Made by a program: the position numbers and the translations under genes | Assembly: GCF_009914335.1 (NCBI RefSeq) | Contig: NZ_CP043925.1 | Span: 2,480,001 to 2,544,000, forward strand | Length of the DNA: 64,000 nt | Reading direction: 5' to 3' | Source: Proteus columbae | Lineage (GTDB): Bacteria; Pseudomonadota; Gammaproteobacteria; Enterobacterales; Enterobacteriaceae | The notes under the pieces: model-generated | The model's database searches: none | What the model was told of the DNA's origin: nothing | The model's input: the letters and a program-made list of their open reading frames with translations, nothing else | Shown here: positions 7,572-64,000 of the stretch, piece by piece | How the letters are laid out: each line of letters starts with the position of its first letter | Numbering within the stretch: the stretch's first letter is position 1

Positions 7572-7647
7572 TCCTCCATAGTTCAGTCGGTAGAACGGCG
7601 GACTGTTAATCCGTATGTCACTGGTTCAAGTCCAGTTGGAGGAGCCA
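7572..7647 (+). tRNA. tRNA-Asn (GUU), copy 3
   Basis: Identical to copies 1 and 2. The AT-rich spacer of about 310 bp between copies 2 and 3 holds no gene. Confidence 0.98.
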
Positions 7648-7654
7648 AATTTAG

Positions 7655-7686
7655 AAAAGCCCGCGCTATTACAGTGCGGGCTTTTT
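7655..7686 (+). terminator. Terminator of tRNA-Asn 3
   Basis: AAAGCCCGC and GCGGGCTTT hairpin followed by TTTTT, nearly the same as after copy 1. Confidence 0.9.
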
Positions 7687-7922
7687 GCTTTCCACCTTCT
7701 CTATTATCAATACCTTTCTCATTTTTCTATCTATTTTATTTTTCAAAGCCCAACATGGTCTCAAATACGTTATCTCTTTATTTTTTATCTTTATTTTTAT
7801 TCTTCAGTGTGAAAAAAATAGCCATTTAAACGAGTTCACCACCTCATTATTAGATTATCTGTTTTAGAAACACACAATATGTTGTTTATCTATGCACTTA
7901 AACAAATATCGTCGATTGTCCT

Positions 7923-7951
7923 TTGACATATCAAATCACCCACTATATGAT
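7923..7951 (+). promoter_or_regulatory. Sigma-70 promoter of tRNA-Asn 4
   Basis: TTGACA (7923-7928) and TATGAT (7946-7951) with 17 bp spacing. This copy lacks the GTTCTC-AC-GAGAAC leader dyad. Confidence 0.8.
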
Positions 7952-7970
7952 ACACGCCACTTAATGATGT

Positions 7971-8046
7971 TCCTCCATAGTTCAGTCGGTAGAACGGCGG
8001 ACTGTTAATCCGTATGTCACTGGTTCGAGTCCAGTTGGAGGAGCCA
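7971..8046 (+). tRNA. tRNA-Asn (GUU), copy 4
   Basis: Same as copies 1-3 except for one base in the T-loop (TTCGAGT instead of TTCAAGT). Promoter, leader and terminator differ from the other three. Confidence 0.98.
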
Positions 8047-36981: not shown

Positions 36982-37050
36982 GGATACACATCTTGTCATA
37001 TGATCAAATGGTTTCGCGAAAAATCAATAATCAGACAACAAGATGTGCGA
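36982..37050 (-). ncRNA. RNA-OUT, antisense regulator of IS10 transposase
   Basis: The 69-nt sequence is the known IS10 antisense RNA: it pairs with the start of the transposase mRNA and blocks translation. Its inverted-repeat arms CACATCTTGT and ACAAGATGTG are intact around an AT-rich loop. Confidence 0.85.
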
Positions 37051-38251
37051 ACTCGATATTTTACACGACTCTCTTTACCAATTCTGCCCCGAATTACACT
37101 TAAAACGACTCAACAGCTTAACGTTGGCTTGCCACGCATTACTTGACTGTAAAACTCTCACTCTTACCGAACTTGGCCGTAACCTGCCAACCAAAGCGAG
37201 AACAAAACATAACATCAAACGAATCGACCGATTGTTAGGTAATCGTCACCTCCACAAAGAGCGACTCGCTGTATACCGTTGGCATGCTAGCTTTATCTGT
37301 TCGGGCAATACGATGCCCATTGTACTTGTTGACTGGTCTGATATTCGTGAGCAAAAACGACTTATGGTATTGCGAGCTTCAGTCGCACTACACGGTCGTT
37401 CTGTTACTCTTTATGAGAAAGCGTTCCCGCTTTCAGAGCAATGTTCAAAGAAAGCTCATGACCAATTTCTAGCCGACCTTGCGAGCATTCTACCGAGTAA
37501 CACCACACCGCTCATTGTCAGTGATGCTGGCTTTAAAGTGCCATGGTATAAATCCGTTGAGAAGCTGGGTTGGTACTGGTTAAGTCGAGTAAGAGGAAAA
37601 GTACAATATGCAGACCTAGGAGCGGAAAACTGGAAACCTATCAGCAACTTACATGATATGTCATCTAGTCACTCAAAGACTTTAGGCTATAAGAGGCTGA
37701 CTAAAAGCAATCCAATCTCATGCCAAATTCTATTGTATAAATCTCGCTCTAAAGGCCGAAAAAATCAGCGCTCGACACGGACTCATTGTCACCACCCGTC
37801 ACCTAAAATCTACTCAGCGTCGGCAAAGGAGCCATGGGTTCTAGCAACTAACTTACCTGTTGAAATTCGAACACCCAAACAACTTGTTAATATCTATTCG
37901 AAGCGAATGCAGATTGAAGAAACCTTCCGAGACTTGAAAAGTCCTGCCTACGGACTAGGCCTACGCCATAGCCGAACGAGCAGCTCAGAGCGTTTTGATA
38001 TCATGCTGCTAATCGCCCTGATGCTTCAACTAACATGTTGGCTTGCGGGCGTTCATGCTCAGAAACAAGGTTGGGACAAGCACTTCCAGGCTAACACAGT
38101 CAGAAATCGAAACGTACTCTCAACAGTTCGCTTAGGCATGGAAGTTTTGCGGCATTCTGGCTACACAATAACAAGGGAAGACTTACTCGTGGCTGCAACC
38201 CTACTAGCTCAAAATTTATTCACACATGGTTACGCTTTGGGGAAATTATGA
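37043..38251 (+). CDS. IS10 transposase
   Basis: A 402-residue DDE transposase of the IS4 family that appears, from memory, identical to Tn10 transposase. It moves the element by cut-and-paste through a hairpin intermediate. The YREK-like region around IYSKRMQIEETFRD (about 286-299) carries the catalytic glutamate. The ATG at nt 108 of the element matches IS10-right. Expression is limited by RNA-OUT and Dam methylation in known IS10. The gene is full length and presumably active. Confidence 0.97.
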   Translation: MCELDILHDSLYQFCPELHLKRLNSLTLACHALLDCKTLTLTELGRNLPTKARTKHNIKRIDRLLGNRHLHKERLAVYRWHASFICSGNTMPIVLVDWSDIREQKRLMVLRASVALHGRSVTLYEKAFPLSEQCSKKAHDQFLADLASILPSNTTPLIVSDAGFKVPWYKSVEKLGWYWLSRVRGKVQYADLGAENWKPISNLHDMSSSHSKTLGYKRLTKSNPISCQILLYKSRSKGRKNQRSTRTHCHHPSPKIYSASAKEPWVLATNLPVEIRTPKQLVNIYSKRMQIEETFRDLKSPAYGLGLRHSRTSSSERFDIMLLIALMLQLTCWLAGVHAQKQGWDKHFQANTVRNRNVLSTVRLGMEVLRHSGYTITREDLLVAATLLAQNLFTHGYALGKL

Positions 38252-49409: not shown

Positions 49410-50975
49410 TTAATATCCTATAGCTATATAGGAAAAATATGCACTTTCAGTATCACCTTCCAAAGTGAACCCTTCTTTAGTATGCCGGCTCGTTCCTAAC
49501 CTTCCCCATCCACTATTATTTGTCACAACAATAACGAAAACTGTATTAGGAAAAGGAATAGGGAATTTATAATCCCACGATCTTCCATCATGAAACCATT
49601 CTTCTTTACCCCATTGTTGAATGATTCCCGTATCTCCGCATTTCAACCATCCGTTAACATCTTTTTTAGCTGTATTTTTAGAACCGCTATTACCTACTAA
49701 TGCATAGTTCCCTTTCGGTTGATATTTACTATCAGACTCACCTTTGGAATAGCTATATCCAGAAACTAAATAATTCCCTTTTGGCTGATATTTACCATCC
49801 GATTCTCCCTTAGAATAACTATAACCCGATACTAGATAATTCCCTTTCGGCTGATATTTTCCATCTGATTCACCTTTGGAATATGCGCCCACATCAGCTG
49901 CGGTCGGTTTATTTTGACTATTAAACTCTTTTGCCCATGGTGTAAAATTACCTTTATCATACTGGCTACGAGAATAAATACGGCTCGTGTTATAAACATA
50001 ATAAAGTTGAGTAATACCAGCATTTTTTAAAACAATTAATGTACCCGCCATGGTTTCTGGGTAATTTAAATTTGTAGTCGCATTTGCATTCGCTGGCTGA
50101 AAATAAATACCCGCTGTTTTATAGTTATTTAAATTTTGATTAGCGCCAATTGAAATCGCCTGATTAGAAAAAATATCTTGCGATGTTACCGTCACATCGC
50201 CACTCAATGGCTTATCATTAACTTTACGTGTCGCAGTAACATAATTGCCTTTCGCTTGATATTTATTATCCGCTTCAGATTTTGAGTAACTATAACTCGC
50301 TACTTGGTAATTCCCTTTCCCCTGATATTTACTATCAGATTCTGCTTTAGTATAACTTTCACCTTTAGTCGCATAATCGCCCGACGGTTGATAACTTCCT
50401 TTTGGCTGATATTTACCATCAGATTCTACTTTGGTATAGCTATCGCCCTTAGTGGCATAATTTCCCGCAGGGGCATAATTCCCTTTCGGTTGATATTTCG
50501 TATCAGTTTCGGCTTTAGAATAACTATGACCTTCAACTTGATATTTACCTAGTGGTTGAAAGCGTTTGTCCGCATCGTCTTTAGAATAAGCGCCAACTTC
50601 ATTCGCTGTAATATCCGCTTTTAATTCAATCCATGCATTACCAGCAATTGGCTCAACATTATTATTTTCAATTTTAGACTGCCAAGCTTTATTTTTATGA
50701 TAAACCACACTACGAATAGGATAAGGTTTGCCTGCTTCCGACCACTTAGCAAAACCCTGCAATTGCATTTCACCAATAGACTCAGTGATATCGTGAAATA
50801 AACTATTCATTTTTTCACGTTCAATATCTTTTGCTGCTGGATCAGTAACTTGGTCACGTTCATAATCGTAACCATAACCTTGTGTATAAGACACAGAACC
50901 ATCAGATTGAATTTCAACAGGCACAACTGTTTTATCCCCTTGTGTTGCAAAGGGGGTTTTAAATATTTTAGTCAT
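49410..50975 (-). CDS. Tail fibre, receptor-binding protein
   Basis: A 521-residue fibre, the last gene of the cluster. An N-terminal baseplate-attachment part (about 1-125) is followed by repeats of about 20-22 residues of the type YSKAESDSKYQGKGNY (about 129-245). A central domain comes next (about 250-355), then more repeats (about 364-428). The C-terminal tip (WLKCGDTGIIQQWG, then PFPNTVFVIVV and YIAIGY) resembles the gp53-like fibre ends of other phages. It should set which strains are bound. No chaperone or invertase follows; the gene is monomorphic here. Confidence 0.88.
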   Translation of the reverse strand: MTKIFKTPFATQGDKTVVPVEIQSDGSVSYTQGYGYDYERDQVTDPAAKDIEREKMNSLFHDITESIGEMQLQGFAKWSEAGKPYPIRSVVYHKNKAWQSKIENNNVEPIAGNAWIELKADITANEVGAYSKDDADKRFQPLGKYQVEGHSYSKAETDTKYQPKGNYAPAGNYATKGDSYTKVESDGKYQPKGSYQPSGDYATKGESYTKAESDSKYQGKGNYQVASYSYSKSEADNKYQAKGNYVTATRKVNDKPLSGDVTVTSQDIFSNQAISIGANQNLNNYKTAGIYFQPANANATTNLNYPETMAGTLIVLKNAGITQLYYVYNTSRIYSRSQYDKGNFTPWAKEFNSQNKPTAADVGAYSKGESDGKYQPKGNYLVSGYSYSKGESDGKYQPKGNYLVSGYSYSKGESDSKYQPKGNYALVGNSGSKNTAKKDVNGWLKCGDTGIIQQWGKEEWFHDGRSWDYKFPIPFPNTVFVIVVTNNSGWGRLGTSRHTKEGFTLEGDTESAYFSYIAIGY

Positions 50976-50980
50976 AAGAA

Positions 50981-51637
50981 TTATTCTCCGAAATTACTCT
51001 TCAGAAAGTTTTTACGATATTGACCATAACCAAAGGCCTTCTTGGTTACGATACGATATTTGACGCCCACGCCAGAAGGACGCGGCATTAAGTCGAAGTT
51101 TTCTAATAAAAGACGTAAACGTTCATCTGGATTAAAATTAAAAACATAATACATATACGTCATATCAAAAGGATCGAGCACAAAGACTTTGCTATCTTCA
51201 CGCCAGAAAAAACGTTTAAGAAACTCATTAATATTGGTCACGGTAGGACTTTGAGTGAGATTAAAATAACGCATTCTCACCAGCATTCTTTTTTGATCTA
51301 AAGTCAGCGATAGAGTGTAATCCGCATTTCGTCTAAAGTTTGCCTTAAAATTGGCTTTATTTTTACCAAAACCAAGACCTATTTTATTTTTATCACTAGG
51401 AGGAATATCTATTCCTAAAGGTACATCTAAAATGCGTGACCATACTGATAAACCAAAATCGTTAGCTGTATCAATATTAAATACATCTCGATACCAGTTT
51501 TGCCAAAATGAAACCGTAGATTGATTAAAGTAAGCCGCTTTTAAATGTGCTAATGCTTTTAGCTTATCTGCATTTTCATATTGCCAGAGGATCGCTTTTA
51601 GTAGATCAGAATGAAAATCAAATTCTTGAATATTCAT
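50981..51637 (-). CDS. DUF2612 baseplate/tail protein (P2 gpI analogue)
   Basis: A 218-residue protein of the DUF2612 family, found after gpJ in contractile tails and thought to link the baseplate wedge to the fibre, like P2 gpI. Its ATG overlaps the J-like stop by 4 bp (ATGA), and the fibre gene starts 5 bp after it. The C-terminal PRPSGVGVKYRIV is typical. Confidence 0.85.
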   Translation of the reverse strand: MNIQEFDFHSDLLKAILWQYENADKLKALAHLKAAYFNQSTVSFWQNWYRDVFNIDTANDFGLSVWSRILDVPLGIDIPPSDKNKIGLGFGKNKANFKANFRRNADYTLSLTLDQKRMLVRMRYFNLTQSPTVTNINEFLKRFFWREDSKVFVLDPFDMTYMYYVFNFNPDERLRLLLENFDLMPRPSGVGVKYRIVTKKAFGYGQYRKNFLKSNFGE

Positions 51638-52821
51638 ACGATCACCACTTGTACCGCCCCTTTTGGTAATCGGGCAATTTGATTAAGACCAATAGGAATT
51701 AATGCAACATTCCAATTTTTTCCATCTGTTGAAAGCTCCACTTTAGTGACAAATAAATGAGGCTCCACCGCATTAACCGCCGCTGAAATTTCAAAAGGAG
51801 AAACTTCTCGCCCGACCACCAGCCCGTTGTCTCCATCTATTTCACCCTGTACCCACTTCTCTAAAGCATTAGGAATAATGGTTTGTGCATCAATATTGGA
51901 TTTTTTTACAGAAATACGGCAAAACACCGGTATTTCTTTCGGTCGTGAAAATTTAATAGGATATTCTTGACCACTTGCTGGCTCTATTACCTTTATTTCA
52001 ATTTCACCATTAAATGCAGCACCTATTGTTTTTGTTCTTAATAATGATTTAGCAATTTCATGGCTATCCCCACCTTCTATACACACGTAAATGCTATGCG
52101 GTAATAATGAAATACCATCAACAATTAACGCTTTATCATTAAAATTTTCACGAAAAGAAAGAGAATTAACGCCCTCTAATTCATATAGCGAAGAAGTAAT
52201 TGCTTCTGCGACGCTGACTGTATTTTTAGCGAGTGTTTGTTTACGCCGACGCCTTGCCTTTATATCTGACTCAGCATGACGACCAACAACTGCATGGGTT
52301 AAGTTATTCACTTTTTCCCATCCCAATACAGAACTTGCCACTTTATTTAATTGCCCAATACCACAACTAATAGAACCATATTCTTTGGCTCGCATATCGC
52401 CTTTAATTTTTCCATTATTAGCGATAATTAATGGTGATAACGTTTCAAAAACAGCCCCCATTATTGTGAGTGCCTGAGAACCTTTAGGAATAATAGTACC
52501 GGGAATACCCGTAAACTCGACATCACTTAAATAAGAATGTGTGGCATTAATACGCTCGCCGCCCATTAATGCCCATATTGCATCGAGAAAAATACCACCA
52601 GCAATATCTGGATTTATTTGATTTGCCAGTTCAGCATTATTACGAACAATCGCATCCCGATTTTCAATTTCCATAGTCACCAATACTCCTTGTGGAGTTT
52701 CTGGCGATAAATTAATGGATTGACCAAATACAGCACGAAATTCGTCTTCTACACGATTTCGTAATGTTGATGTATCAGGAACAATCACACCTTTATTATT
52801 GATATAACGATAGTCAGCCAT
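51634..52821 (-). CDS. Baseplate J-like wedge protein
   Basis: A 395-residue baseplate J/gp47-family protein, the main wedge component around the hub. The N-terminal segment FGQSINLSPETPQGVLVTM (about 33-51) and DIAGGIFLDAIWALMG (about 73-88) are family hallmarks. It overlaps the gp25-like gene by 8 bp and the DUF2612 gene by 4 bp, showing tight coupling. Confidence 0.92.
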   Translation of the reverse strand: MADYRYINNKGVIVPDTSTLRNRVEDEFRAVFGQSINLSPETPQGVLVTMEIENRDAIVRNNAELANQINPDIAGGIFLDAIWALMGGERINATHSYLSDVEFTGIPGTIIPKGSQALTIMGAVFETLSPLIIANNGKIKGDMRAKEYGSISCGIGQLNKVASSVLGWEKVNNLTHAVVGRHAESDIKARRRRKQTLAKNTVSVAEAITSSLYELEGVNSLSFRENFNDKALIVDGISLLPHSIYVCIEGGDSHEIAKSLLRTKTIGAAFNGEIEIKVIEPASGQEYPIKFSRPKEIPVFCRISVKKSNIDAQTIIPNALEKWVQGEIDGDNGLVVGREVSPFEISAAVNAVEPHLFVTKVELSTDGKNWNVALIPIGLNQIARLPKGAVQVVIV

Positions 52822-53158
52822 TCAATGTAAATCCTCCATATATCGTGCGTATATCTGCCTGATATTTCAATGTTCCTTCTTCTAGAAAAGCATGGAAATA
52901 AGTGATAGAGACAACTTCCTCTATTTCAGCAATACGTTGTCGAAACGCCATTTCAAATAAAGGAAGATCAACTTGTCGGCTAAATGTAGCTGACCAATAA
53001 GGAATACCTTTATCTTTTTTATGTAGCATTTCACCACGGACAGCCTTAATAAAATGCTGACAAAGATTTTTTACTGCATCATCGTTGTCACAAATTTGAA
53101 GGTTACCATCAGCACCTATCGCAAAATCATTCTGCTGGTTTATTGAAAATGTCCTCAT
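52814..53158 (-). CDS. gp25/gpW-like baseplate protein
   Basis: A 114-residue protein between the spike and the J-like gene, the place of gpW/gp25, which starts sheath assembly on the baseplate. It has an acidic front (FAIGADGNLQICDNDDAVKN) and a conserved-looking middle, FRQRIAEIEEVVSI (about 72-85). Identity rests on position and general fit. Confidence 0.75.
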   Translation of the reverse strand: MRTFSINQQNDFAIGADGNLQICDNDDAVKNLCQHFIKAVRGEMLHKKDKGIPYWSATFSRQVDLPLFEMAFRQRIAEIEEVVSITYFHAFLEEGTLKYQADIRTIYGGFTLNG

Positions 53159-53847
53159 ATTGGACTCCCTGTATTGTCTTTCCCTGCTTGTACCCCACTA
53201 TGAGTATGTGTTGAGCCGATATCTTTTCCGTTATGGCGCATCAGCCCACCTTGTGAATCACTATTACCATTTACAGCGTAATTACCATTAACAGTAACAT
53301 TGCCAGTAAATATCGTTTCAGGTGCGTTGATCTCATATTTTGGGGTTTCTAATACAACTTTATCGTTATGAAGAGAGAAACAGACTGAACCATCCATTGA
53401 CTGAATAACTAAGGCATCAATGTTCTTCCCATCAATAGCCCATCCTTTGATCGTGTCAGGAAAAAACATAGCATCACTAAACGAATGTAATCGTGTTGTA
53501 TTGGGTTGATCTTCTAAACCACCACGTTGAAAAATAAGGCTAATATCACGATCACAGGCTTTTAACCAGCCAAAATCACCAGGTTTAATGGGGGCTCTAA
53601 TAAAAAATCCACCGCCACCAAATCGAAACACAGGAATGTTAGCAACAGGGGCTCGAGAGATTTTTTCATCATCCGTAGTCAACATCATGACCAAGGGCTT
53701 TATCATGGCTCGATTGGTTTTTTCATCATAATTAATGACAGTTGCGGGTAACATATCATCTGTATTCATCATTAAATGGCGAAATGCAGACGAAAAAGCC
53801 CCTGCCAATGAACCAACACTGGCAATATCATTATTGGGTTTACTCAT
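53155..53847 (-). CDS. Gp138-type membrane-puncturing spike (gpV analogue)
   Basis: A 230-residue spike with an N-terminal OB-like domain (about 35-115) and a C-terminal beta-helix tip. The HTH-SG near residues 213-217 resembles the metal-binding H-x-H apex of phage spikes. It pierces the target outer membrane when the sheath contracts. It overlaps the gp25-like gene by 4 bp. Confidence 0.85.
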   Translation of the reverse strand: MSKPNNDIASVGSLAGAFSSAFRHLMMNTDDMLPATVINYDEKTNRAMIKPLVMMLTTDDEKISRAPVANIPVFRFGGGGFFIRAPIKPGDFGWLKACDRDISLIFQRGGLEDQPNTTRLHSFSDAMFFPDTIKGWAIDGKNIDALVIQSMDGSVCFSLHNDKVVLETPKYEINAPETIFTGNVTVNGNYAVNGNSDSQGGLMRHNGKDIGSTHTHSGVQAGKDNTGSPI

Positions 53848-53849
53848 AG

Positions 53850-54662
53850 TTAAGCTCGTTTACATGTTGCGGTATAGGCAAAATCAGCATCATGAGAGGC
53901 AACTTTAAATTCAAGCTGCTCAATAATGTAATCGCCATTTAGTGAGGTATTTAGTTTACTATCAAGGCGAAGCATTCCACCTAATTCAGAGGTACTATCG
54001 ATAAGATAACTTACCGTCAATCCACTCTCCGTGGCTTTAGGAATGCCAATCATGCCTGAATTCATATTCAAAATACGAAATCGGCTTTTTAATGCTTTAT
54101 CATCATCTTTTACGAATAACGTATCATCATCAATAAAAGCTTTAACATTTCCCGACTCTTGTAAACGCTCTATTTGATGTAATGCAGAGCCACAATAATA
54201 CCAATTGGCAATATTTTTATCGGTCGCCTGAAAATCCAATTTCACGCCACAATCATTAGCAATAACTAACGCGATTTCACTCAATTTTTGAATTGCGCCA
54301 CCACTAGAAGAAATAATTTTCCCAGAACAATGATGGCTAGTTTTTGCAGATAACGTTACGGTGACATTCGGAGGAGAGTCTATTTCTGCACTGACGATAT
54401 CGCCAATAAAAAGCGAAAATAAACCAGAGTTAATTCGACCAACTTCTAAATAAAGCCGCCGAGCTTGCTTATTTTTATTATAAGGACTGGTTTCCGTCAG
54501 CAAATAATCCCTTGTCTCGGCATTAAGCCCTGTAATAGCGATTTTACATTCGTTTTGTAATGGATTTGCATATTTTTTTCCTCCTGCTGATATACGCAAT
54601 CCTTCATACCATTGAAGCCTTTCGCCGACCTCAATCCCCACCCTTATTCGCCGAAGATCCAT
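53850..54662 (-). CDS. Baseplate hub protein (gpD/gp27-like)
   Basis: About 270 residues, in the position of the hub that connects tube and spike. The mix of beta-strands with LQWYEGLRI near the N-terminus and YIIEQLEFKVASHDADF at the C-terminus fits hub proteins of this tail type. GGAG lies 8 nt before the ATG at 54662; an ATG 6 nt upstream is too close to it. It overlaps the preceding gene by about 30 bp. Confidence 0.75.
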   Translation of the reverse strand: MDLRRIRVGIEVGERLQWYEGLRISAGGKKYANPLQNECKIAITGLNAETRDYLLTETSPYNKNKQARRLYLEVGRINSGLFSLFIGDIVSAEIDSPPNVTVTLSAKTSHHCSGKIISSSGGAIQKLSEIALVIANDCGVKLDFQATDKNIANWYYCGSALHQIERLQESGNVKAFIDDDTLFVKDDDKALKSRFRILNMNSGMIGIPKATESGLTVSYLIDSTSELGGMLRLDSKLNTSLNGDYIIEQLEFKVASHDADFAYTATCKRA

Positions 54663-54951
54663 CTTCATTACTCCAATACACTAATGATTGTGTTTTTGTA
54701 AATTCCTCATACCACGGTAAAGCATCATTTTCTGTTAAAAAAACTAAATTAATCCCTTGTTTTAAATAACAATAAGGAATAATAGGTGTATTAGCGACCA
54801 AGCGAATACCTGTAATAAGCACTTCACCATCTCGCTCAATATCACAAAACATGGTTTGATTAGCGACCTTCAACGTAAAAATCCAATCAACACCAGCTAT
54901 TTCGACAGAAAATCGCTGATTAGGAATAGCTTGTAATGGAATAGTTTGCAT
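54631..54951 (-). CDS. Baseplate plug protein
   Basis: A 106-residue protein starting IPLQAIPNQRFSVEIAG, typical of the phage baseplate plug family (DUF6983), which closes the hub. It overlaps the hub gene start. Confidence 0.78.
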   Translation of the reverse strand: MQTIPLQAIPNQRFSVEIAGVDWIFTLKVANQTMFCDIERDGEVLITGIRLVANTPIIPYCYLKQGINLVFLTENDALPWYEEFTKTQSLVYWSNEDGSSANKGGD

Positions 54952-54963
54952 TTTATCTACCTC

Positions 54964-55452
54964 CTATTTTTCTTTTTTTCCTATTTGTGTTGATTTTTTA
55001 CTTTTGACATTTCCACGATTGACTGTTGAGGTTTGCTTTGGTTTTTTTGTCGATTTAGAAGATTTTTTATTATATTCAGGCTCTATTGTTTTCCATTCTA
55101 TAAATTTGAGTTTTAATTCGATGGCATTCACTTTTTGGGGATCTTCATCATGACTGAGGCTCTCTAACAACATCGGTTGATAGGTTTTGACTCTAGTTTG
55201 AATTCCCACTAGTGTGTGTTCGTCATAAAGCTGCTTGATAATAGAGTAACGATTCACAATATCACCCGTTAATAGTAATTCGACACTTATACTAATAGGG
55301 TCAACAATGATGTGGTCGCTACGATTTTCACCATTTTCAACCGCAAATTTAATAACTTGGTGACTATCAGTAATCGAAACTTTCATCGGATTAACGCTAT
55401 CAAATAGTGTTGCAAATGACTCTAAATCAAAAATTCTAACTTCAGTTATCAT
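54964..55452 (-). CDS. Dit-like or tail-tube-end baseplate protein
   Basis: A 162-residue protein with an N-terminal domain like the Dit_N/DUF6046 group (about 1-120) and a lysine- and serine-rich C-terminal tail (about 125-162). It follows the tape-measure gene by 2 bp, the usual place for the distal tail protein. The basic tail is odd for this family and may contact the tape measure or DNA-free tube lumen; this is a guess. Confidence 0.65.
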   Translation of the reverse strand: MITEVRIFDLESFATLFDSVNPMKVSITDSHQVIKFAVENGENRSDHIIVDPISISVELLLTGDIVNRYSIIKQLYDEHTLVGIQTRVKTYQPMLLESLSHDEDPQKVNAIELKLKFIEWKTIEPEYNKKSSKSTKKPKQTSTVNRGNVKSKKSTQIGKKEK

Positions 55453-55454
55453 AA

Positions 55455-57758
55455 TTAACTCTTACCTCCGCTAGAGTAGTGCTCTGAAATTTCTTTAGCC
55501 GCTTCATTTATCAATGTTTCATTAATCGCTTTCACAACACCAGGCCCGTCAGTGGCTTGTGTTTCAATTCTGATTTCACCAATTTGAACATTACTTTCAT
55601 TTTTAACGCTTGATTGGTTACTGATCATTTGACTGGTCATCGGGTTTAAACTATTTGTTGATGACAGTGCTAATCCATTATTTAACGCATTTACATCTTG
55701 TACTGGATTATAATAGGGTATTGCTGGCTTTGGTTGTGGAATGGTGTAATTGAGACTGCCTTCATCAGATAATTTCCGTTCCACCTTTTGAACAACAGTG
55801 ATTTCTTTTTCTGTATCTTCCATACCTAAAAAGCTTTTTGCTGATTGCCAAATCCCTTTTATGGAATCAATACCTTCATTAACCCAACCTAATATTTTCT
55901 CTATATATTCCCACATCCAACTAAATACACCGACGATAGCCTCAGAAACAAAAACAAAGACACTAATAATCGATTGACCCCATTCAATAATATTATTAAT
56001 GCCCGCTTTAAGAACCATAATAAATTGATTAAATGATTCAGATATAAAATTCCAAGCGGCAATAAAATATTCAGCAATAGCACTTGAGGCAATTTTTAAC
56101 GATTCAACAAAGGTTTGCCATGCTGCCCATACAACCATAATTGCGTCTTTAAGCGCGGGGTATTGATCCAAAATACTGCCTATCATTGAATCATTACCAT
56201 TAATAAAATTCATAATATCGTCATAGACGAGTTTAAATGCCGTCGCTAAGATCCCAATAACAGCAGCAATAGCTAATATAGGGAGTGCCGTTGCAAGTGT
56301 AGCAACTGCCGCAGACACCATTGCAGGTAAATAAAAAATGGCAACAGCACTACCAATAGCTGAAAAGAATCCGATAACAAAGTCTTTATTCTCAATACAA
56401 AAATTAACTAATTTATCAAACCACGTTATTCCTTTTGCAAGAACGGGAATAATTATCTCTAAAAAGTTATTTTTTAATTGTGCCGCTAATTGATCAAACT
56501 TATTCATTACTGCATTAAGCTGAATAGAACTTTCGATACTTTCATCATTAATACCAGAAAATTGTTTTTGAACCCCCATTGTGCGCTCTAATTCTTCGCG
56601 CCCCTTCATCATCAATTCAATGGTTTTTTCATCGACAACACCCAGTTTTTCCAGCTCTTTTTGGGCATCATCAAAGCTCATTCCTTTGACTTTATCTGCG
56701 GTTTTTAAAAGTTGTTCGATAGGATCTTCTGTATCATTAAATGCATTGGCCATTGCCGTCAAATCAGCTTGAGCGGCCTCTTTTGTGCCCCCAATTTCAG
56801 CCATAGCACCTGAAAATGCATCGATATCGATAGCTGCGATACCTATTTTTTCACTCAGTTTATCTAGCGACTCTATTTCTTTGGCGCGATCTAATGAAGC
56901 AGAAAAAACCTTTTGCAAAGTCCCCGTAATATCCTTAGCGCCAATGGCGTTAAGAATATAGTCCTTCATTTTCGCTGTGGTTTTCTGATAGCTTTTACCT
57001 GTTTCATCAACACTATCACCTAATCGACGTTGGGCCTTTGCTTCTTTAACTGCCGCCTCAATGCCTTGCGTTTGCATTGTAGTAATAAAAGTATCGTAAT
57101 CAGCACCTAATTGTTTAATCAGTGCATCGATGACAATTTTACTTTCTTTATTTTTCTTTTCAGTTTCGGTTAAAGAATTCAACTCACCATTAAGTGAAGA
57201 TAATTGCGCCTCCATTGCCTCATATTCAGTATTCAGGTTTGCTAAAATATGCGCTTCATCACCGCCACTATTATTGATCAATTCTCTTTGGTAATTTAAA
57301 ACCGACATAGAATCTTTTAGGGTATCAATACTTTGTGTTACTGAATTAATTTTATCTTGAGTTTCACTGATATTAAGATCAATATTTATTGGCTCATTCA
57401 GTGATAAGCCCAGCATGCCCACTAAGATTTCTTGCAAGAATTTATCAAACTCTTGCGTTCCCATTAGAGCGCTTTTAACAATGCTTTGAATTGAGTTTTC
57501 AATAGTTACAGAAGCACTTGTCATTTCATCACTATTGAATGAAATACTTATGTCATGATCTTCGGGTAATTCCCCAAGATTGAAGTGAATTTCTTGAACA
57601 AAGTTATAGAAACTAGTAATACCTCCTGAAACCCCCTGTTCAATATTTTTCATTTCAACAAGAATTTCATCTGCTGATTTTCTAATATTTGCTAATGCAC
57701 TATCAGATACTTCAGCCTCCAACATCAGTACCTGAGAAAATACCTGTAATAGAGACAT
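55455..57758 (-). CDS. Tail tape measure protein
   Basis: A 767-residue protein, the longest in the cluster, with long helical and coiled-coil stretches (about 120-260) and a hydrophobic helical segment near 450-540. Its length sets tail length; with the usual ruler of about 0.15 nm per residue the tail would be near 115 nm. Its ATG overlaps the TAA of the frameshifted chaperone ORF as TAATG. Confidence 0.9.
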   Translation of the reverse strand: MSLLQVFSQVLMLEAEVSDSALANIRKSADEILVEMKNIEQGVSGGITSFYNFVQEIHFNLGELPEDHDISISFNSDEMTSASVTIENSIQSIVKSALMGTQEFDKFLQEILVGMLGLSLNEPINIDLNISETQDKINSVTQSIDTLKDSMSVLNYQRELINNSGGDEAHILANLNTEYEAMEAQLSSLNGELNSLTETEKKNKESKIVIDALIKQLGADYDTFITTMQTQGIEAAVKEAKAQRRLGDSVDETGKSYQKTTAKMKDYILNAIGAKDITGTLQKVFSASLDRAKEIESLDKLSEKIGIAAIDIDAFSGAMAEIGGTKEAAQADLTAMANAFNDTEDPIEQLLKTADKVKGMSFDDAQKELEKLGVVDEKTIELMMKGREELERTMGVQKQFSGINDESIESSIQLNAVMNKFDQLAAQLKNNFLEIIIPVLAKGITWFDKLVNFCIENKDFVIGFFSAIGSAVAIFYLPAMVSAAVATLATALPILAIAAVIGILATAFKLVYDDIMNFINGNDSMIGSILDQYPALKDAIMVVWAAWQTFVESLKIASSAIAEYFIAAWNFISESFNQFIMVLKAGINNIIEWGQSIISVFVFVSEAIVGVFSWMWEYIEKILGWVNEGIDSIKGIWQSAKSFLGMEDTEKEITVVQKVERKLSDEGSLNYTIPQPKPAIPYYNPVQDVNALNNGLALSSTNSLNPMTSQMISNQSSVKNESNVQIGEIRIETQATDGPGVVKAINETLINEAAKEISEHYSSGGKS

Positions 57759-58299
57759 TATCTCTCCTTTAACGCCGCTAGCGCCTCGTTATAACGATTA
57801 GTAATCGCGATCTCCCACAGATCAAAGGCTTCCTCTAGATCTATAGTTGTTTTGAGTTCTGTGAAGGAGGCGAAACCCGCGGAGATGATGACTGCAAAGA
57901 AGCCATCAGCGTTTTTATAATCGACGGGAGAGAACCGCTGAACTTGCCTAGAAGGTATTGTAGGAAATTTAGGCTCCCGTCTTTGCCGAAAAAACTGGTG
58001 TTGTACTTCAGCATTTCGAGTTCAAGACGAATCAAGGCTTCCCCATCAGGCACATGATTATCAATTAATGTGCTGGTTTTTAGATAAATCTCTTGCCCTT
58101 CTTTTTCAACTGCCACATAAGCCATCATTTTTAACATGGCTTCTTTGCTGACTTCATAATCACCAATTTTAGGTGCATTCGATAAAGGATATTTAGCGAG
58201 AATTTCTCGTCCAATCGTTGCAGGTAATCGGCTAATAATAAAAGTATGTTCTTCACGATCACTATCAATAACAGTGATCTCTTTTGGTTTAATTAACAT
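57758..58299 (-). CDS. Tail assembly chaperone with -1 frameshift product
   Basis: The zero-frame product is 152 residues, ending at the TAG at 57841. At the codons TCA AAA CAA, a -1 slip of Lys-tRNA on the AAAA run enters a frame that stays open for 30 codons. That frame reads as protein (IDLEEAFDLWEIAITNRYNE) and stops in TAATG exactly at the tape-measure start, giving about 180 residues. Phage tails with sheath commonly make a short and a long chaperone by such frameshifting, which guide tube assembly on the tape measure. Coordinates here cover the long form; the short form is 57841-58299. Confidence 0.8.
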
Positions 58300-58362
58300 A
58301 ATTAAATCCCATAAAAAAGGCGGCCGAAGCCGCCATTAGATGAATAAGAATAACGCTAAAAA

Positions 58363-58815
58363 TTAACGTGCTCTGACACGATCAAAATCTTGGAAAATAA
58401 AGGTGTACTGCTTAGATTTGAGACGCCCAGCACTCGCAATTGAATTACCACGACTACCATTAGTAATTCGACCATTACGAGCAGTGGTAATAGAACCATC
58501 ACCATAAGAAGCCACTAATGTAATAATATCGCTTGCATGACGACGTCCTCGTCTTGCTGTATTTGCATCAAGCAAAATAGCCAAGTTTTCATCTTCTTCA
58601 CTACCTGCTAATACATTAACCGTCACAGTTTGAGGTGTAGGCGCTGACCAACTCACTAAATTACCATTAATATCTACTGCGGTTTGAGTGATATCTACTG
58701 CTGGTAAATCTAAAGGATCACCATCATCTGAAAATGTGGTAATAGGAATACCTGCAGGAAATGTGTTACTTGCCTGAATAATTAAACTTAAACCTGTTGC
58801 TGAAATATCGTTCAT
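58363..58815 (-). CDS. Tail tube protein
   Basis: A 150-residue protein directly after the sheath gene, rich in beta-strands, with NISATGLSLIIQ-like start and a C-terminal YTFIFQDFDRV. It fits DUF3277-type tube proteins by position and size. It forms the inner tube that is driven into the target. Confidence 0.8.
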   Translation of the reverse strand: MNDISATGLSLIIQASNTFPAGIPITTFSDDGDPLDLPAVDITQTAVDINGNLVSWSAPTPQTVTVNVLAGSEEDENLAILLDANTARRGRRHASDIITLVASYGDGSITTARNGRITNGSRGNSIASAGRLKSKQYTFIFQDFDRVRAR

Positions 58816-58825
58816 TGTTTGTTCC

Positions 58826-60313
58826 TTAAACTAAATTGTGTGAGCCTTCAACTTTACGAACCCAATCGCCTTTACCGTAAATTAATACATATTTCATGAT
58901 GTATTCTGGTAAATTAGAAGGACCTGTTTCTTCAACGATTTCAGCGTTATACCAATAACCTTTATTTTGTACATCGTGCCACGCTAAATCATCACCTGCT
59001 GCATCTGTAATTGCGATTTTTTGTACTTCAGCCAGCGTTTTACCCGTAAGAATAGTGCCATTATTTAATGCTTTCGTAACTGCACCCGCAATAACCATCA
59101 TCGCTCTTGCTTCACCATCTTTATTCGCTGGAATACCACGAGTGGAAAGCAATAAGCTTAACCATTGCTGTGCGATATGGGCTTTTAGCCATTGCTCATT
59201 AGTATGAACACTCATATCTAATGGATTAGAAGCATTTCCACATAAAAAACCACGTTGATAGAAGCTAATATCAGTGCCAGTAACAGCTGTTTCACCGTAA
59301 TAGTTCACGCGTAATTTATCTAATCGATCCGCCGCAATATCGGTCTTAACTTGAGATGGGAAAGTGATACCAAATTGACGATACATATAGTTAGTCGTCG
59401 CATTTGTGCGATCAAAATCTGTTGCAGCCATAATTGCCATCGGTAGAGCTTGAACAAAAAAGTCATCATCTGTTTTTAAATTTAATCCCGTTGATGCGGT
59501 ACCGATTAATGCTTTACTATAAATTTCGGCTTGTTTATCTGGAACTGATAAATAGAGCTGGTATTTTACATTTTCACCCGCAATATACTCTGCTAACTCA
59601 ACACTTTGCTCTACTGAAAGCTCGGTTAAGAATGTCGCACTACCAAATGAATCAGAAATCGCTTCGGCAGCGATAAATGCTTGAAGCGCTGTTTGTGCCA
59701 CATTACCCTCAGATGCATCTCCGTCACTTAACCCCATAGCATCAGCTAAAGGTGAGTGATCTATGGTGATCTTCGCTTTTTCTTGTACACCACCACTCAT
59801 CAAGAAAGCACCATCAAGTGCATTAAAAGTGACGTAACAATTGGCAAATTGAGGTTCGCTTTCAGCGTTTAATTTAGCTTGGATCAGAGAAGCAACATCA
59901 GCGTAAGACTCAACATCTTTTAGGGAAATATCAGTAATATTTTTAGAGATATCACCGATAGTCAAAGTAAATGCACCCTCTTCAATTAACTTTAATTTAT
60001 CAAGAGTTGCTGCTGGTGTACCAAATAATGTCGGAGCACGACCTACGGGTTCAAAAGAAGCAATTTGTAGCTCTTTAGGTTTACTAATAGGTGCGGGACT
60101 AACATAACTAAAATATTGACGAGCAAATTTCGCTTCTGGTGATCCTGCACCAAGTAATTCATCCACTTGCCCACTAGCAAATTCAAGTACTTTCCCTGCT
60201 GGAATTTTAGGGTTTGTTGAGAAAATACGAGCTGTAAGTTTGCGCATAGGTGCGGCTGATGCACCAATAACCGCGCTCGCAATATCAATATAGCGCGTTT
60301 GTTTAATAGACAT
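58826..60313 (-). CDS. Contractile tail sheath protein (DUF3383)
   Basis: A 495-residue protein of the DUF3383 family, the sheath of a subgroup of contractile tails. It starts KQTRYIDIASAVIGAS and has a C-terminal part with YGKGDWVRKVEGSHN. A sheath gene means the tail is contractile, R-type and not F-type. The tube gene follows 10 bp later. Confidence 0.9.
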   Translation of the reverse strand: MSIKQTRYIDIASAVIGASAAPMRKLTARIFSTNPKIPAGKVLEFASGQVDELLGAGSPEAKFARQYFSYVSPAPISKPKELQIASFEPVGRAPTLFGTPAATLDKLKLIEEGAFTLTIGDISKNITDISLKDVESYADVASLIQAKLNAESEPQFANCYVTFNALDGAFLMSGGVQEKAKITIDHSPLADAMGLSDGDASEGNVAQTALQAFIAAEAISDSFGSATFLTELSVEQSVELAEYIAGENVKYQLYLSVPDKQAEIYSKALIGTASTGLNLKTDDDFFVQALPMAIMAATDFDRTNATTNYMYRQFGITFPSQVKTDIAADRLDKLRVNYYGETAVTGTDISFYQRGFLCGNASNPLDMSVHTNEQWLKAHIAQQWLSLLLSTRGIPANKDGEARAMMVIAGAVTKALNNGTILTGKTLAEVQKIAITDAAGDDLAWHDVQNKGYWYNAEIVEETGPSNLPEYIMKYVLIYGKGDWVRKVEGSHNLV

Positions 60314-60321
60314 ATTTATCC

Positions 60322-60834
60322 TTAAATACGATATAAGTTAGAAATAAGTAAATTTGTTGCAGCAGTGTCTAAAGATAACGTACTGGAAAAAGTGACATTA
60401 AAATCAAATGAAGGATTATGCTCATAGCTATTTCCAGCATTTATTATCGGCGCTCGTCTAATTTCGCTCGCACGTTGTATCCCTATTCCCTCTTTTCTCA
60501 TTGATTCGACAAAAGACAACGAATTAATAATCATCCGAGTCATTCGAATTAAATCACCTGCTGTTAAATTTGGATGTTGTTTAATAAAACCTTGAACCTG
60601 AAATGTTAATTCGAACAGTTGTTGTTCTTTATGGTTTGCATTATTACCTTGAATATTATAATTTCTTTTTTGCCAACCTTGGCCAACCTCCTTTATAGGA
60701 AAAAACATAATAATATTATTATCTTGCTTTTTATCTGGTTGATAACCAGCAATAACATCAACATTAATACTTGCTGATCTAAATTGTTTTAATAGTTGTT
60801 CACGAATGGCAATATTAATATCATTATCTTTCAT
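60322..60834 (-). CDS. Tail terminator-like protein
   Basis: A 170-residue protein between the lysis block and the sheath, in the position of the tail terminator that caps tube and sheath. It fits the family of phage proteins of the LIC_12616 type. In a headless particle a terminator would close the tail end. It ends 8 bp before the sheath gene. Confidence 0.7.
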   Translation of the reverse strand: MKDNDINIAIREQLLKQFRSASINVDVIAGYQPDKKQDNNIIMFFPIKEVGQGWQKRNYNIQGNNANHKEQQLFELTFQVQGFIKQHPNLTAGDLIRMTRMIINSLSFVESMRKEGIGIQRASEIRRAPIINAGNSYEHNPSFDFNVTFSSTLSLDTAATNLLISNLYRI

Positions 60835-60927
60835 TTCACCTCCTTAATATAACTCTCCTTTTCTTTATAAAAATTCAATCTATTTTATAAATAATTTTTA
60901 TTGATTATAAATTAATTAAAGTGATTT
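60835..60927. other. Junction between lysis and tail modules
   Basis: These 93 bp are AT-rich and gene-free. In a lambda-like phage the terminase and head genes would begin here; none are present. Confidence 0.6.
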
Positions 60928-61377
60928 TTAATTAATACACTCTTGCCGAATATAATCTTGTAAACCTAAAATGATATGTTCTGATTGCGCAATTCGTTCT
61001 CTGAGTACCCAATAATTTCGGATAGCGGTGTCAGTAGGTCTGGCGGTGCTTGCATCAACCAAGCCGGCGGTGGAATTGGCTGATATTTTGGGGCATTCTG
61101 CTTTGATATACACCCGCTCAGGAGTACGTTCACTAATATCACGCAACTGATCAATTTCTTTTTTTGCATGCACAAGTTCCTGTAAATGACGATTATCAAG
61201 TTGATTAAGCTGACTTATTCTTAATTGATAATCTTTATTCTCTGCAATCTGTTGAATAAGAGATTGATTAATATTATTGTATTCCTGTTTCAAGGATTTA
61301 TTTTTATCAATTAACCAAATCGATCCTATACCTAGGCATAAAATCACTATTGCCATTATCTTTAATAAATAATTCAT
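60928..61377 (-). CDS. Inner-membrane spanin Rz
   Basis: A 149-residue i-spanin with an N-terminal membrane helix (about 3-22) and a periplasmic coiled coil. With Rz1 it fuses inner and outer membranes in the last step of lysis. Its ATG overlaps the endolysin stop (ATGA); the in-frame ATG at 61389 lies inside the endolysin gene. Rz1 is nested in another frame. Confidence 0.85.
   Translation of the reverse strand: MNYLLKIMAIVILCLGIGSIWLIDKNKSLKQEYNNINQSLIQQIAENKDYQLRISQLNQLDNRHLQELVHAKKEIDQLRDISERTPERVYIKAECPKISANSTAGLVDASTARPTDTAIRNYWVLRERIAQSEHIILGLQDYIRQECIN
60966..61169 (-). CDS. Outer-membrane spanin Rz1 (nested)
   Basis: A 67-residue lipoprotein in a different frame inside Rz. The signal peptide MQKKKLISCVILVNVLLSGC ends in a lipobox whose Cys20 would be lipidated, and the mature part is proline-rich (PIPPPAWLMQAPPDLL). 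Nested Rz/Rz1 is the standard spanin arrangement. Confidence 0.85.
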   Translation of the reverse strand: MQKKKLISCVILVNVLLSGCISKQNAPKYQPIPPPAWLMQAPPDLLTPLSEIIGYSENELRNQNISF

Positions 61378-61778
61378 AATAACAACCAAGCATCTTCAAA
61401 AACTTTTTCTGAATAAGGTTGATAGCCAAGTTCAATATTAACAATCGCTACTGCTAAAGGAATAGCGACATTTTTTAATTGTGTATTAATTGGATTATCA
61501 GCCTCAATACCAATTTCTTTTGATGCTCGACTAATATAGCCTACCGTATTATTTTCGTTAGGTGGAGCATAACGATTGATAATTGTTTTAATGGTATTTA
61601 ACCCATATTTTTTTTGGTACGTTTGTAATAATTTGTAGATGGCTCGTATTCCATATTCAGGTGAAATAAATTGGCAAAAATCTTTATCGGTTTGCTCTAT
61701 GGATAATCCTTGCCATTTCGAACCGTGCCGGATATTACCGGGGTTATTATTACGCTCACCTCGTGCTATTTTAGCCAT
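61374..61778 (-). CDS. Endolysin (lysozyme-like)
   Basis: A 134-residue soluble enzyme, with RGERNNNPGNIRHGSKWQGL at the N-terminus, as in small phage lysozyme-like or P5-like endolysins. It lies between holin and spanin genes, which fixes its role: cutting cell-wall glycan strands. No signal peptide, so it depends on the holin. It overlaps holin by 8 bp and Rz by 4 bp. Confidence 0.8.
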   Translation of the reverse strand: MAKIARGERNNNPGNIRHGSKWQGLSIEQTDKDFCQFISPEYGIRAIYKLLQTYQKKYGLNTIKTIINRYAPPNENNTVGYISRASKEIGIEADNPINTQLKNVAIPLAVAIVNIELGYQPYSEKVFEDAWLLL

Positions 61779-62079
61779 TTTTAACTCCTGCTCTTCCTTT
61801 AAGGAGTTTACTCACGGAATCTACTCCGACATAACCAATAAACACACTGGCTAAGTAAGCAAACTCATGATTAATATTAAATAAAATTAGAATATCTTTA
61901 ATAAACCAAGCAAACATTGCACACATCAGCCCATCTATAGAGGTTTTTTTCCATCCTCCGCCGTTATATAAACCTCGAAGAATAGCCATTCCTCCAGCAA
62001 GAGAGGCTGATATTCCTTGCTCTTTCATTGAAGAAAGGGCAATAAATATCTGTTCCCATAGATCTGGATTTTCTTTCAT
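61771..62079 (-). CDS. Holin (lambda holin family)
   Basis: A 102-residue membrane protein with about three helices and a soluble start, fitting the phage holin family PF05106. It opens the inner membrane to release the endolysin and times lysis. Its ATG lies 16 nt after GGAGG; a different-frame ATG at 62089 is better placed and opens a 41-codon frame, and the GGAGG is paired in a CCTCC-TATT-GGAGG hairpin. Start usage is therefore unusual. Confidence 0.82.
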   Translation of the reverse strand: MKENPDLWEQIFIALSSMKEQGISASLAGGMAILRGLYNGGGWKKTSIDGLMCAMFAWFIKDILILFNINHEFAYLASVFIGYVGVDSVSKLLKGRAGVKNG

Positions 62080-62095
62080 TGTTTCTCATGGCTTA

Positions 62096-62109
62096 CCTCC
62101 AATAGGAGG
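62096..62109 (-). promoter_or_regulatory. Hairpin over the holin ribosome binding site
   Basis: CCTCC-TATT-GGAGG is a 5 bp all-GC or GC-rich stem that contains the whole Shine-Dalgarno before the holin gene. It probably dampens lysis gene translation. Confidence 0.5.
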
Positions 62110-62186
62110 AACTGTAATAAATAATATACTCATCCACAGCACTTAAATTTAAGCACTGTTTTAACATGAGTATGTTTATGTTTTAT

Positions 62187-62202
62187 TTATCTAATTAGAT
62201 AA
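62187..62202. repeat. 16 bp palindrome
   Basis: TTATCTAATTAGATAA is a perfect palindrome downstream of terminator t2. It may be a protein-binding site; function unknown. Confidence 0.5.
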
Positions 62203-62207
62203 ATGGC

Positions 62208-62236
62208 AGATATAAAAAAGACCACATTGTGGTCTT
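62208..62236 (-). terminator. Late-leader terminator t2
   Basis: AAGACCACA and TGTGGTCTT pair, followed on the minus strand by TTTTTTA. It blocks the late transcript before the lysis genes unless Q allows read-through. Confidence 0.8.
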
Positions 62237-62297
62237 CCATTGAAAATAAAATTTAACAGATATCGTTAATTTATATTAGCTAAGAAAATAGAGATAC

Positions 62298-62330
62298 AAA
62301 AAAGCCCCACTTCAAAAATTGGGGCTTTTT
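62298..62330 (-). terminator. Late-leader terminator t1
   Basis: AAAAAGCCCCA and TGGGGCTTTTT pair with T-runs on both sides. It follows the late promoter by about 40-50 nt, the place of lambda tR'. Confidence 0.88.
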
Positions 62331-62377
62331 ATATTCTGTTGTGAGGTTTTTAGATACAAATATCTCACTGTGGAGTT

Positions 62378-62406
62378 ATAGTATGCTTATTTTTCCTAAA
62401 AATCAA
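62378..62406 (-). promoter_or_regulatory. Late promoter (pR' analogue)
   Basis: On the minus strand TTGATT (62406-62401) and TACTAT (62383-62378) are 17 bp apart, with a start point near 62371. The transcript leader soon carries nested dyads (GTGAG...CTCAC and AGATA...TATCT, 62341-62368), then terminators t1 and t2. This matches Q-controlled late promoters of lambdoid phages. Confidence 0.7.
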
Positions 62407-62445
62407 TAACTATTTTCTACAAAAATAAATAAATAGAGAAAATTA

Positions 62446-63261
62446 TTACCTAATGGTCACTTCTTGCAGAATTTTTTCTGATAAGGACTCTTCTTTAAAG
62501 CATTCTTCAACTAAATGTTCAAATAACGGCTTGTAGTTACTGTACGCAACAGTTTTAGAAACACTCACCACCATTTGTACTTGCTCTAATACTTCGCTGA
62601 ATTTTAAACGAGGATATCCGCGTCCTGAACATTGATTACAAGGTTTGAAAACAGACATACCTTGCTTTTCACTCTCTTTTTTATCTAAAACTTGACCACG
62701 TCCATGGCAACGACATGCTAAACGAATTTCAGCTTTCCCCTTACATGTAGGGCAAACCACTCGAGTTGTTTCTCTTACTTCACGGTAAGAAGTTTTATTT
62801 TGGGGTTTAACTTTAAGCTCATTTTTAAAATTTCGCTCAAGCTCTTTAACAGATTTTGAGGTGTAGCTTTTTGTAGTAAAAACGTCAACTTCAATAAATC
62901 CATTACTGCAATCAGGACACGCTTTCTGACTTGCGGCACTTCTTGCGTAATCTTGGAAAGCATAATTAGCAATAATGTGTAAAACATTAACTTTCACATC
63001 TTCATTAAGTTTATCAATGGCTTTATATTGATAAGCCTGAGTTAGTGCATATTGATAAAGGCTTTCTATTGCTTCACTGGGATGATTAATACTATGTTTA
63101 GCTAAAAATAACTCTATGCCCATTCGCCCTTTTCGAGTTACTAAACTAATTGATGTCATCACATCAGTCACTGACAGTGAATCTACTGCCTTCACTGTTC
63201 TTACATCACTTAATACAATGCTTTTTGGTGAAAAATATTTAGGTAAGTCTGCTAGTCTCAT
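62446..63261 (-). CDS. Q-type antitermination protein
   Basis: A 271-residue protein of the phage antiterminator Q family (phage 82 type). A DnaJ-like zinc-binding region has CPDC, CPTC, CRCHGRG and CNQCSGRGYP pairs (about 116-215), and helical parts lie on both sides. It would let RNA polymerase pass t1 and t2 after loading at the late promoter. AAGGAG precedes the ATG by 6 nt. It is directly next to the repressor gene, with no replication genes between. Confidence 0.88.
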   Translation of the reverse strand: MRLADLPKYFSPKSIVLSDVRTVKAVDSLSVTDVMTSISLVTRKGRMGIELFLAKHSINHPSEAIESLYQYALTQAYQYKAIDKLNEDVKVNVLHIIANYAFQDYARSAASQKACPDCSNGFIEVDVFTTKSYTSKSVKELERNFKNELKVKPQNKTSYREVRETTRVVCPTCKGKAEIRLACRCHGRGQVLDKKESEKQGMSVFKPCNQCSGRGYPRLKFSEVLEQVQMVVSVSKTVAYSNYKPLFEHLVEECFKEESLSEKILQEVTIR

Positions 63262-63405
63262 TTAATGCTCCTTTTGATTTCCTATCACTACTAATTGGTC
63301 ATCCATGTACCACGACAAGGCATGGCATTTATGCATCTAAATCACCCGCATTTTACGGCGTTATCTCAACGTGATTTTTACTTACCACTCTTGCATTGGT
63401 TTATT

Positions 63406-63507
63406 TAGTTAATTTTTTGTACTTTTCGTACTTTTATTAACTAATAGTTAATGCTATATTTTAACTAAAGTGACGTCAAGTAGCAAAGGAAATTAACCAA
63501 TGGTTAA
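63406..63507. promoter_or_regulatory. Repressor operators between Q and cI
   Basis: ATTAACTA-A-TAGTTAAT (63436-63452) and TTAACCA-A-TGGTTAA (63493-63507) are perfect dyads, and single TAGTTAA/TTAACTA half-sites lie at 63406-63412 and 63461-63467. The last dyad covers the ATG of the repressor gene, suggesting autorepression. The others would cover the divergent promoter for Q. Confidence 0.6.
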
Positions 63508-64000
63508 AAATGATAATAAAACGGAGTTCACAAAAAGGCTTCAAGAAGCTTGCTTAGATTCAGGGATTGCAGGACGTGGATTAGGTAAAAGAATTACAGA
63601 TGCACTCGCTGAGCAAGGTATAAAAGTCAGTGCTCCAGCTGTATGGAAATGGCTGAACAATGAGTCAATTCCTGATCCAACAAATATCTTAGCATTAAGC
63701 CGATGGCTCGATGTTCGAGCAGAATGGTTAGAATATGGGCGAGGAGCAAAAAGAAACGATGGTGTTTCAGTAAATGAAATGACACCTGTTGATGATTGGG
63801 ATAATAATACGCCGATAGAACGAGATGAAGTTGAGATCCCCTTCTATACTACTATTGAATTGGCTGCAGGTTTCGGAAGTTGTACCACTGATAATCAAAA
63901 GGTGGAATTATTGAGATTTTCTCGTTCTACATTTAATCGCTATGGCGTTCAACCTAGTGATGCCGTTGCTTTTAAAGTTCATGGTGACAGTATGTCCCCA
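63500..64000 (+). CDS. CI-like repressor, S24 family (3' end outside window)
   Basis: The visible 167 residues give an N-terminal helix-turn-helix domain (about 10-70) and the start of an S24 peptidase domain with GDSMSP, whose serine is the self-cleavage nucleophile. RecA-stimulated self-cleavage after DNA damage is the known family behaviour, so the cluster should be SOS-inducible. AAAGGAA precedes the ATG. No stop is reached before the edge. Confidence 0.88.
   Translation, partial: MVKNDNKTEFTKRLQEACLDSGIAGRGLGKRITDALAEQGIKVSAPAVWKWLNNESIPDPTNILALSRWLDVRAEWLEYGRGAKRNDGVSVNEMTPVDDWDNNTPIERDEVEIPFYTTIELAAGFGSCTTDNQKVELLRFSRSTFNRYGVQPSDAVAFKVHGDSMSP

Follow-up and report, generated by a model that had tools for sequence, protein, structure and literature searches.

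Does a contractile tail gene cluster that carries its own repressor and lysis genes, and lies between host genes of a Proteus chromosome, encode a headless killing particle, or is it what is left of a prophage? The window analysed here is the whole stretch of 64,000 nucleotides that corresponds to bases 2480001-2544000 of a complete 4.11-Mb Proteus chromosome. An earlier note on this DNA had proposed a headless contractile tail under CI/Q control, a probable tailocin, and had suggested searching the flanks for head genes and comparing the locus across Proteus genomes. The flanks, the head-gene search and the Proteus comparison all support the headless tailocin proposed there. On the evidence given below, the cluster is very probably an R-type tailocin whose tail is E217-like (DUF3383); its domestication would predate the branching off of P. 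mirabilis, and it would have been retained as a weapon set off by DNA damage.

Measured against another Proteus genome in which the site is empty (G207), the element is ~15.2 kb long and runs from window base 49096 to genome position ~2544316; by that comparison its ends fall near window base 49095 and base 18317 of L004, a stretch covering the right flank. To the left lie a presumptive AraC-type gene, with matches to PHROG regulator families, and then presumptive dms-type oxidoreductase genes. To the right, outside the window, two tRNA-Thr/tRNA-Ser pairs are followed by genes that we take, from their sequence and order, to be rcsD, rcsB, a sensor kinase in the place of rcsC, and gyrA. The tandem tRNA-Thr(TGT)/tRNA-Ser(TGA) pairs (L004:18360-18990) adjoin the element, also occur in G204 and G207, where the site is empty, and are possibly the element's old attachment region. 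The left boundary was searched for a repeat of the tRNA-Thr end, which would be an attachment-site relic; the best match, of 11 bp, was not counted. At the P. mirabilis draft site, where the gap contains runs of N, no tRNA was found, and the tRNA link is therefore not extended to that lineage. Elsewhere the window holds four tRNA-Asn(GTT) genes in ~3 kb (5004-8046) and a 402-aa transposase-like ORF (37043-38251) between two short membrane-protein-like ORFs, which may be halves of one gene.

Every part that the earlier note had named exists where it was placed, as PHROG and Pfam matches and coordinates confirm. The repressor is indeed present but not wholly inside the window, which holds only the first 167 of its 245 codons. 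Tail genes (49410-60834), lysis genes (60928-62079) and Q (62446-63261) are all on the minus strand. Reading leftward, the order begins with the Q antiterminator (62446..63261; PHROG 127, E 1.2e-75; PF03589), the holin (61771..62079; PF05106), the endolysin (61374..61778; PHROG 873; solved endolysin 7q47, E 4.4e-18) and the Rz spanin (60928..61389; PHROG 13, PF03245), in which an Rz1 lipoprotein frame with lipobox LSGC is embedded. These are followed by a gp29-type gateway or tail terminator (60322..60834; PF22756, PF23961; solved E217 gp29), the DUF3383 contractile sheath (58826..60313; PF11863, E 3.5e-137; E217 sheath gp31) and a protein of the E217 gp32 family (58363..58815; PF22764, E 2.2e-57), which we take by its place to be the tail tube. 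Beyond the tail assembly chaperone (57841..58299) come the 767-aa tape measure protein (55455..57758; PHROG 34923, PHROG 58), a Dit-like tail protein (54964..55452; PF21821), a plug protein of the Pam3 gp18 family (54631..54951; PF22479), the baseplate hub of the E217 gp41 family (53850..54668; PF22759, E 4e-84) and the central spike (53155..53847; E217 spike gp43, E 2.6e-36). The row closes with two wedges, a baseplate wedge subunit (52814..53158; PHROG 120) and a J-type wedge (51634..52821; PHROG 6, PF04865), then the DUF2612 baseplate wedge protein (50981..51637; PF11041; solved E217 gp45, E 4e-14) and a 521-aa tail fibre (49410..50975; PHROG tail fibre 1.8e-34; Pfam gp53-like tip). The S24 (CI-like) repressor (PF00717 with the full protein) faces the other way, on the plus strand; it starts at 63500, occupies 63500..64000 and ends 237 bases past the window (rest in L004:17500-18237).

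Solved E217 proteins match the sheath, gp29, spike and DUF2612 protein, and the tail parts are of the E217/Pam3 kind; among solved structures the repressor, the Dit-like protein and the chaperone found no usable match. The chaperone, assigned by its place, also matched no PHROG or Pfam family. An open -1 frame (57758-58021) overlaps its end and stops at the start of the tape measure gene. A T TTT TTC slippery site is kept in 9 of 9 sequences examined, and the overlap is likely to be a programmed frameshift, with a probable -1 frameshift product.

The claim that no virus head genes lie between repressor and fibre was examined with 12 head and packaging proteins taken from a prophage of the same genome. 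All 12 matched the prophage locus, the positive control, and at E 1e-3 they gave no match in the window, none in the 40 kb of the flanks (L004-L005), and none in 19 other rcsD-site loci (18 genomes, G203 being set aside). The claim was thus borne out, and the flanks proved to be host genes and tRNAs. The prophage's major head protein and large terminase are each single copy in the genome, both ~1 Mb from the cluster. Of the 18 cluster proteins scanned against PHROG and Pfam (ORFs of at least 50 aa), none matches a family of integrases, replication proteins or head-packaging enzymes. Four did match PHROGs labelled 'head and packaging', a label explained by the families themselves, which are baseplate/structural or endolysin proteins. 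The terminase, portal, capsid and integrase expected of an intact prophage are thus missing from the cluster, which combines contractile tail genes with its own lysis genes and regulator, as a tailocin does.

Where did such a tail come from? The same genome carries, near 1.46-1.49 Mb, a prophage with a related tail and with integrase, CI, O-like protein, Q, lysis, terminase, portal, protease and major head protein genes. The cluster is 80% identical to it in the sheath, 82% in the tube, 88% in the DUF2612 protein, 54% in gp29 and ~35% in the tape measure. The prophage head module sits between Rz and gp29; in the cluster these two genes are separated by 93 bp, where a search for a head-gene remnant gave nothing convincing. 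Among 23 related loci, a count made without weaker sheath matches (e.g. G002 and G041, 35-37%), a major head protein lies beside the tail in 18, three of these being second copies of a locus under another id; the remaining five are all at the rcsD site. In a midpoint-rooted tree from the joined sequences of seven tail proteins (23 rows; G031 and the prophage of G213 were not included), all ten headless loci fall into a single clade with 100/100 support, sister to six Proteus prophages, and P. mirabilis is the first branch within it. The simplest reading of this tree is a single loss of the head before P. mirabilis split off. A close known phage as the source was also sought: 408 INPHARED records match the sheath, the best at 46%. 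The best repressor match outside Proteus was 53% among the drawn family genomes (n=198). A second stretch of the chromosome (G000:C1:1547068-1547717, L002) is 68% identical to the cluster Q gene and perhaps belongs to another prophage.

Twenty Proteus genomes, one per species, were compared, including P. columbae (G202), P. cibi (G201), P. terrae (G212), Proteus sp. FME41 (G211), P. vulgaris PR00166 (G215) and P. mirabilis ATCC 29906 (G205); the site is split across contigs in two of them (G203 and G215). The comparison that the earlier note had proposed placed the full gene set at one and the same site, next to rcsD, in 10 of 20 (the window genome, G199-G202, G206, G210-G212 and P. mirabilis G205). 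Three of the full sets are broken, by an early stop in the fibre of G210, an early stop in the holin of G212, and breaks in the sheath and holin of the P. mirabilis draft, whose single-frame sheath identity is an artefact of the broken frame and was not used. Five genomes (G198, G209, G213, G214 and G215, the last on two contigs) retain repressor, Q and lysis genes with the tail wholly or mostly gone. The element is degraded in G082 and G208 and absent from G204 and G207, and G203 shows no more than a relic of the sheath next to the AraC gene. The tail-less repressor-Q-holin-endolysin-Rz loci (L121, L131, L134, L135 and L136/L137) may be products of recent decay, or may have been kept by themselves as a lysis module that responds to damage. 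A lone S24 repressor-like gene of 230 aa, ~48% identical over the C-terminal part, was seen among host genes (L140:10067-10759), and a match of this kind occurs in all 20 genomes.

That 10 of 20 genomes lack the full set and three more have broken genes counts against the tailocin reading, and these losses are what a functionless prophage remnant, caught part-way through deletion, would be expected to leave. Such decay is nevertheless unlikely as an account of the cluster, because seven of the ten full sets have no interrupted frame, the ten loci form one old clade and the regulatory signals are conserved. Moreover, mean dN/dS for 17 non-fibre genes, over the nine non-mirabilis full sets, was 0.03-0.28, compared with 0.04 for rcsD (one holin, one Dit and two rcsD rows were left out for length or absence). 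By this measure the cluster genes are under purifying selection, and selection together with a fixed chromosomal site and a variable receptor-binding tip is again what a tailocin would display.

The prophage in the same genome raises another alternative, that the cluster is a reservoir or satellite whose tails or fibre genes serve a related head-bearing phage. We consider this very improbable, since six genomes with the full set (G199, G200, G201, G206, G210 and G212) have no second related sheath, gp29, the would-be contact with the head, shares only 54% identity with its prophage counterpart, and the cluster has a repressor, Q and lysis genes of its own. A contractile tail without a head would also suit an extracellular contractile injection system delivering an effector. 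Such systems are marked by an AAA+ ATPase; none of the 18 scanned proteins matches an AAA+ ATPase or effector family, and the phage-type lysis and fibre genes are present, so that this last alternative has next to no likelihood.

How would the cluster be switched on? The stretch between repressor and Q contains TTAACYATTRGTTAA twice, and no other exact copy occurs in the chromosome. At one mismatch the pattern, which was drawn from these two sites, occurs at 13 places compared with 9 for a reversed control, not clearly above it. The two palindromes, candidate operators at 63437..63451 and at 63493..63507 (the latter overlapping the repressor start), sit either side of a promoter-like pair for Q, TTGACG-17-TAGCAT (63479-63451, minus strand). 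Their half-sites, TTAAC/GTTAA, are kept in 14 of 14 aligned loci, while the centres vary. Downstream of Q, on the same strand, are a late promoter-like pair, TTGATT-17-TACTAT (62406-62378), at a place conserved in 14 loci, and two hairpins with T runs, the putative terminators T1 (62298..62326) and T2 (62214..62236), with folding z of -3.3 and -3.4. A T1 hairpin stands at this place in all 14 loci; in P. mirabilis T2 cannot be recognised. A promoter scan, which missed the late pair, returned 3 promoter-like sites against 6.5 in shuffles, fewer than chance, and a terminator scan 1 terminator-like site against 1.0 expected. As neither scan did better than chance, our reading of the control region rests on conservation and layout. 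Repressor, candidate operators, Q, late promoter-like pair and putative terminators are laid out as in lambda-type late control. The motifs AAGFG and GDSM occur in every one of the 15 repressor copies and VKIL, at 200, in 14 of them; from LexA and CI we presume these to be the cleavage site and the catalytic residues, the catalytic lysine being in VKIL. Direct control of the cluster by LexA was dropped, there being 0 LexA-type boxes in the window.

These features suggest the following course of events. The ancestor would have been a temperate Proteus myophage, its tail E217-like (DUF3383), that settled between the AraC-type gene and the tRNA/rcsD region. Before P. mirabilis separated, this phage would have shed the head module that lay between Rz and gp29, along with its early genes and integrase, the remainder being retained as a damage-triggered weapon. 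The S24 repressor would hold the Q promoter off by binding the two palindromic operators, until RecA, activated in a presumed SOS response, led the repressor to cleave itself. Q would then let polymerase from the late promoter pass both terminators. Headless tails would be assembled, holin, endolysin and spanins would lyse the cell, and the released particles would bind kin cells by the fibre tip and kill them by contraction.

The fibre is consistent with such a role. In nine rows (G210, with its broken gene, was left out) the first 100 residues are nearly identical, and the eight from species other than P. mirabilis also have similar shafts. The tips are of at least five kinds, one shared by the window genome, G202 and G206, one by G199 and G211, one by G201 and G212, and one each in G200 and P. 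mirabilis. To judge from these alignments, a conserved N-terminal part carries an exchangeable tip, and tips are swapped between species, which points to surface differences between Proteus strains. Some other proteins have changed fast on the headless branch. In a post hoc relative-rate test (P. mirabilis sheath row left out), counts on the headless and prophage sides with three outgroups were 37:9, 41:9 and 40:11 for gp29 and 35:11, 48:2 and 41:3 for the Dit-like protein, chi-square being >12 in each case. Chi-square reached 16.2 and 9.8 for the hub (two outgroups), 5.0-7.3 for the spike and 7.5 for the sheath (one outgroup), and the DUF2612 protein went in the direction opposite to gp29 and the Dit-like protein. 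The excess in these two could mark a change of role or, alternatively, exchange with another phage. With a domesticated tail and a head-bearing sister in one genome, one can ask which proteins change once the head is lost.

The earlier note had pointed to old reports of phage-tail-like killing particles in P. vulgaris. A report on tail-like particles that kill P. vulgaris exists (Coetzee et al. 1968, J Gen Virol 2:29-36), and its particles are counted among R-type tailocins in a later paper, so far as the accessible parts of the two sources go. A search of the open-access literature found no gene assigned to them, and the cluster is a candidate for their source, a defined locus that could be deleted to study tail-like killing in Proteus. 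In the P. vulgaris representative, most tail genes are missing from the rcsD site, and its genome has a head-bearing prophage whose tail is similar; tails of that kind could also account for the 1968 particles. We regard as no better than tentative the wider proposal that a separate domestication of an E217/DUF3383 tail before the P. mirabilis split encoded those particles, with a change of role and fast evolution in gp29 and the Dit-like protein once heads were lost, and with the lysis-only remnants of some species acting as a damage-triggered self-lysis module.

Several known systems resemble the cluster, the three tailocins among them being compared here by description from the available part of each source. 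R-type pyocins of Pseudomonas aeruginosa share with it a headless contractile tail, lysis genes and a repressor that answers DNA damage, and differ in being controlled by PrtR/PrtN with no Q system (PMC10598620); no PrtN-type activator was matched among the 18 scanned cluster proteins. Carotovoricin of Pectobacterium likewise occupies one syntenic site across its genus and has holin, lytic enzyme, sheath, tube and tape measure genes; its site is tolC_2/ybiB, and fibre exchange figures in the title of the paper (PMC13195805). Enterocoliticin of Yersinia enterocolitica is also encoded by a cluster for a contractile tail without a head, and upstream of its tail genes a CI repressor and two Q antiterminators are annotated (PMC13030884). 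The earlier note was right that CI/Q is unlike PrtN/PrtR, but a CI/Q switch driving a headless tail is not a new regulatory design, since enterocoliticin already pairs the two. What sets them apart, as far as the description in that source goes, is the tail, Mu-like in enterocoliticin and E217/DUF3383-like here. Pseudomonas phage E217, with its Pbunavirus-type tail, has the same tail protein families and yet is a complete phage, and the sheath is ~35% identical in related Pseudomonas phages. Head-bearing prophages of Proteus and Xenorhabdus have the same tail gene order and families and sheaths 69-80% identical; they differ by their head genes, and the copy in the window genome, the only one typed, also by its integrase, O-like protein and different CI and Q. 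The cluster is kept in half of the sampled Proteus species and is decaying or lost in the other half. The open-access literature yielded no description of a Proteus tailocin locus or of a DUF3383 tailocin, and within that literature its tail would belong to a lineage new among described tailocins.
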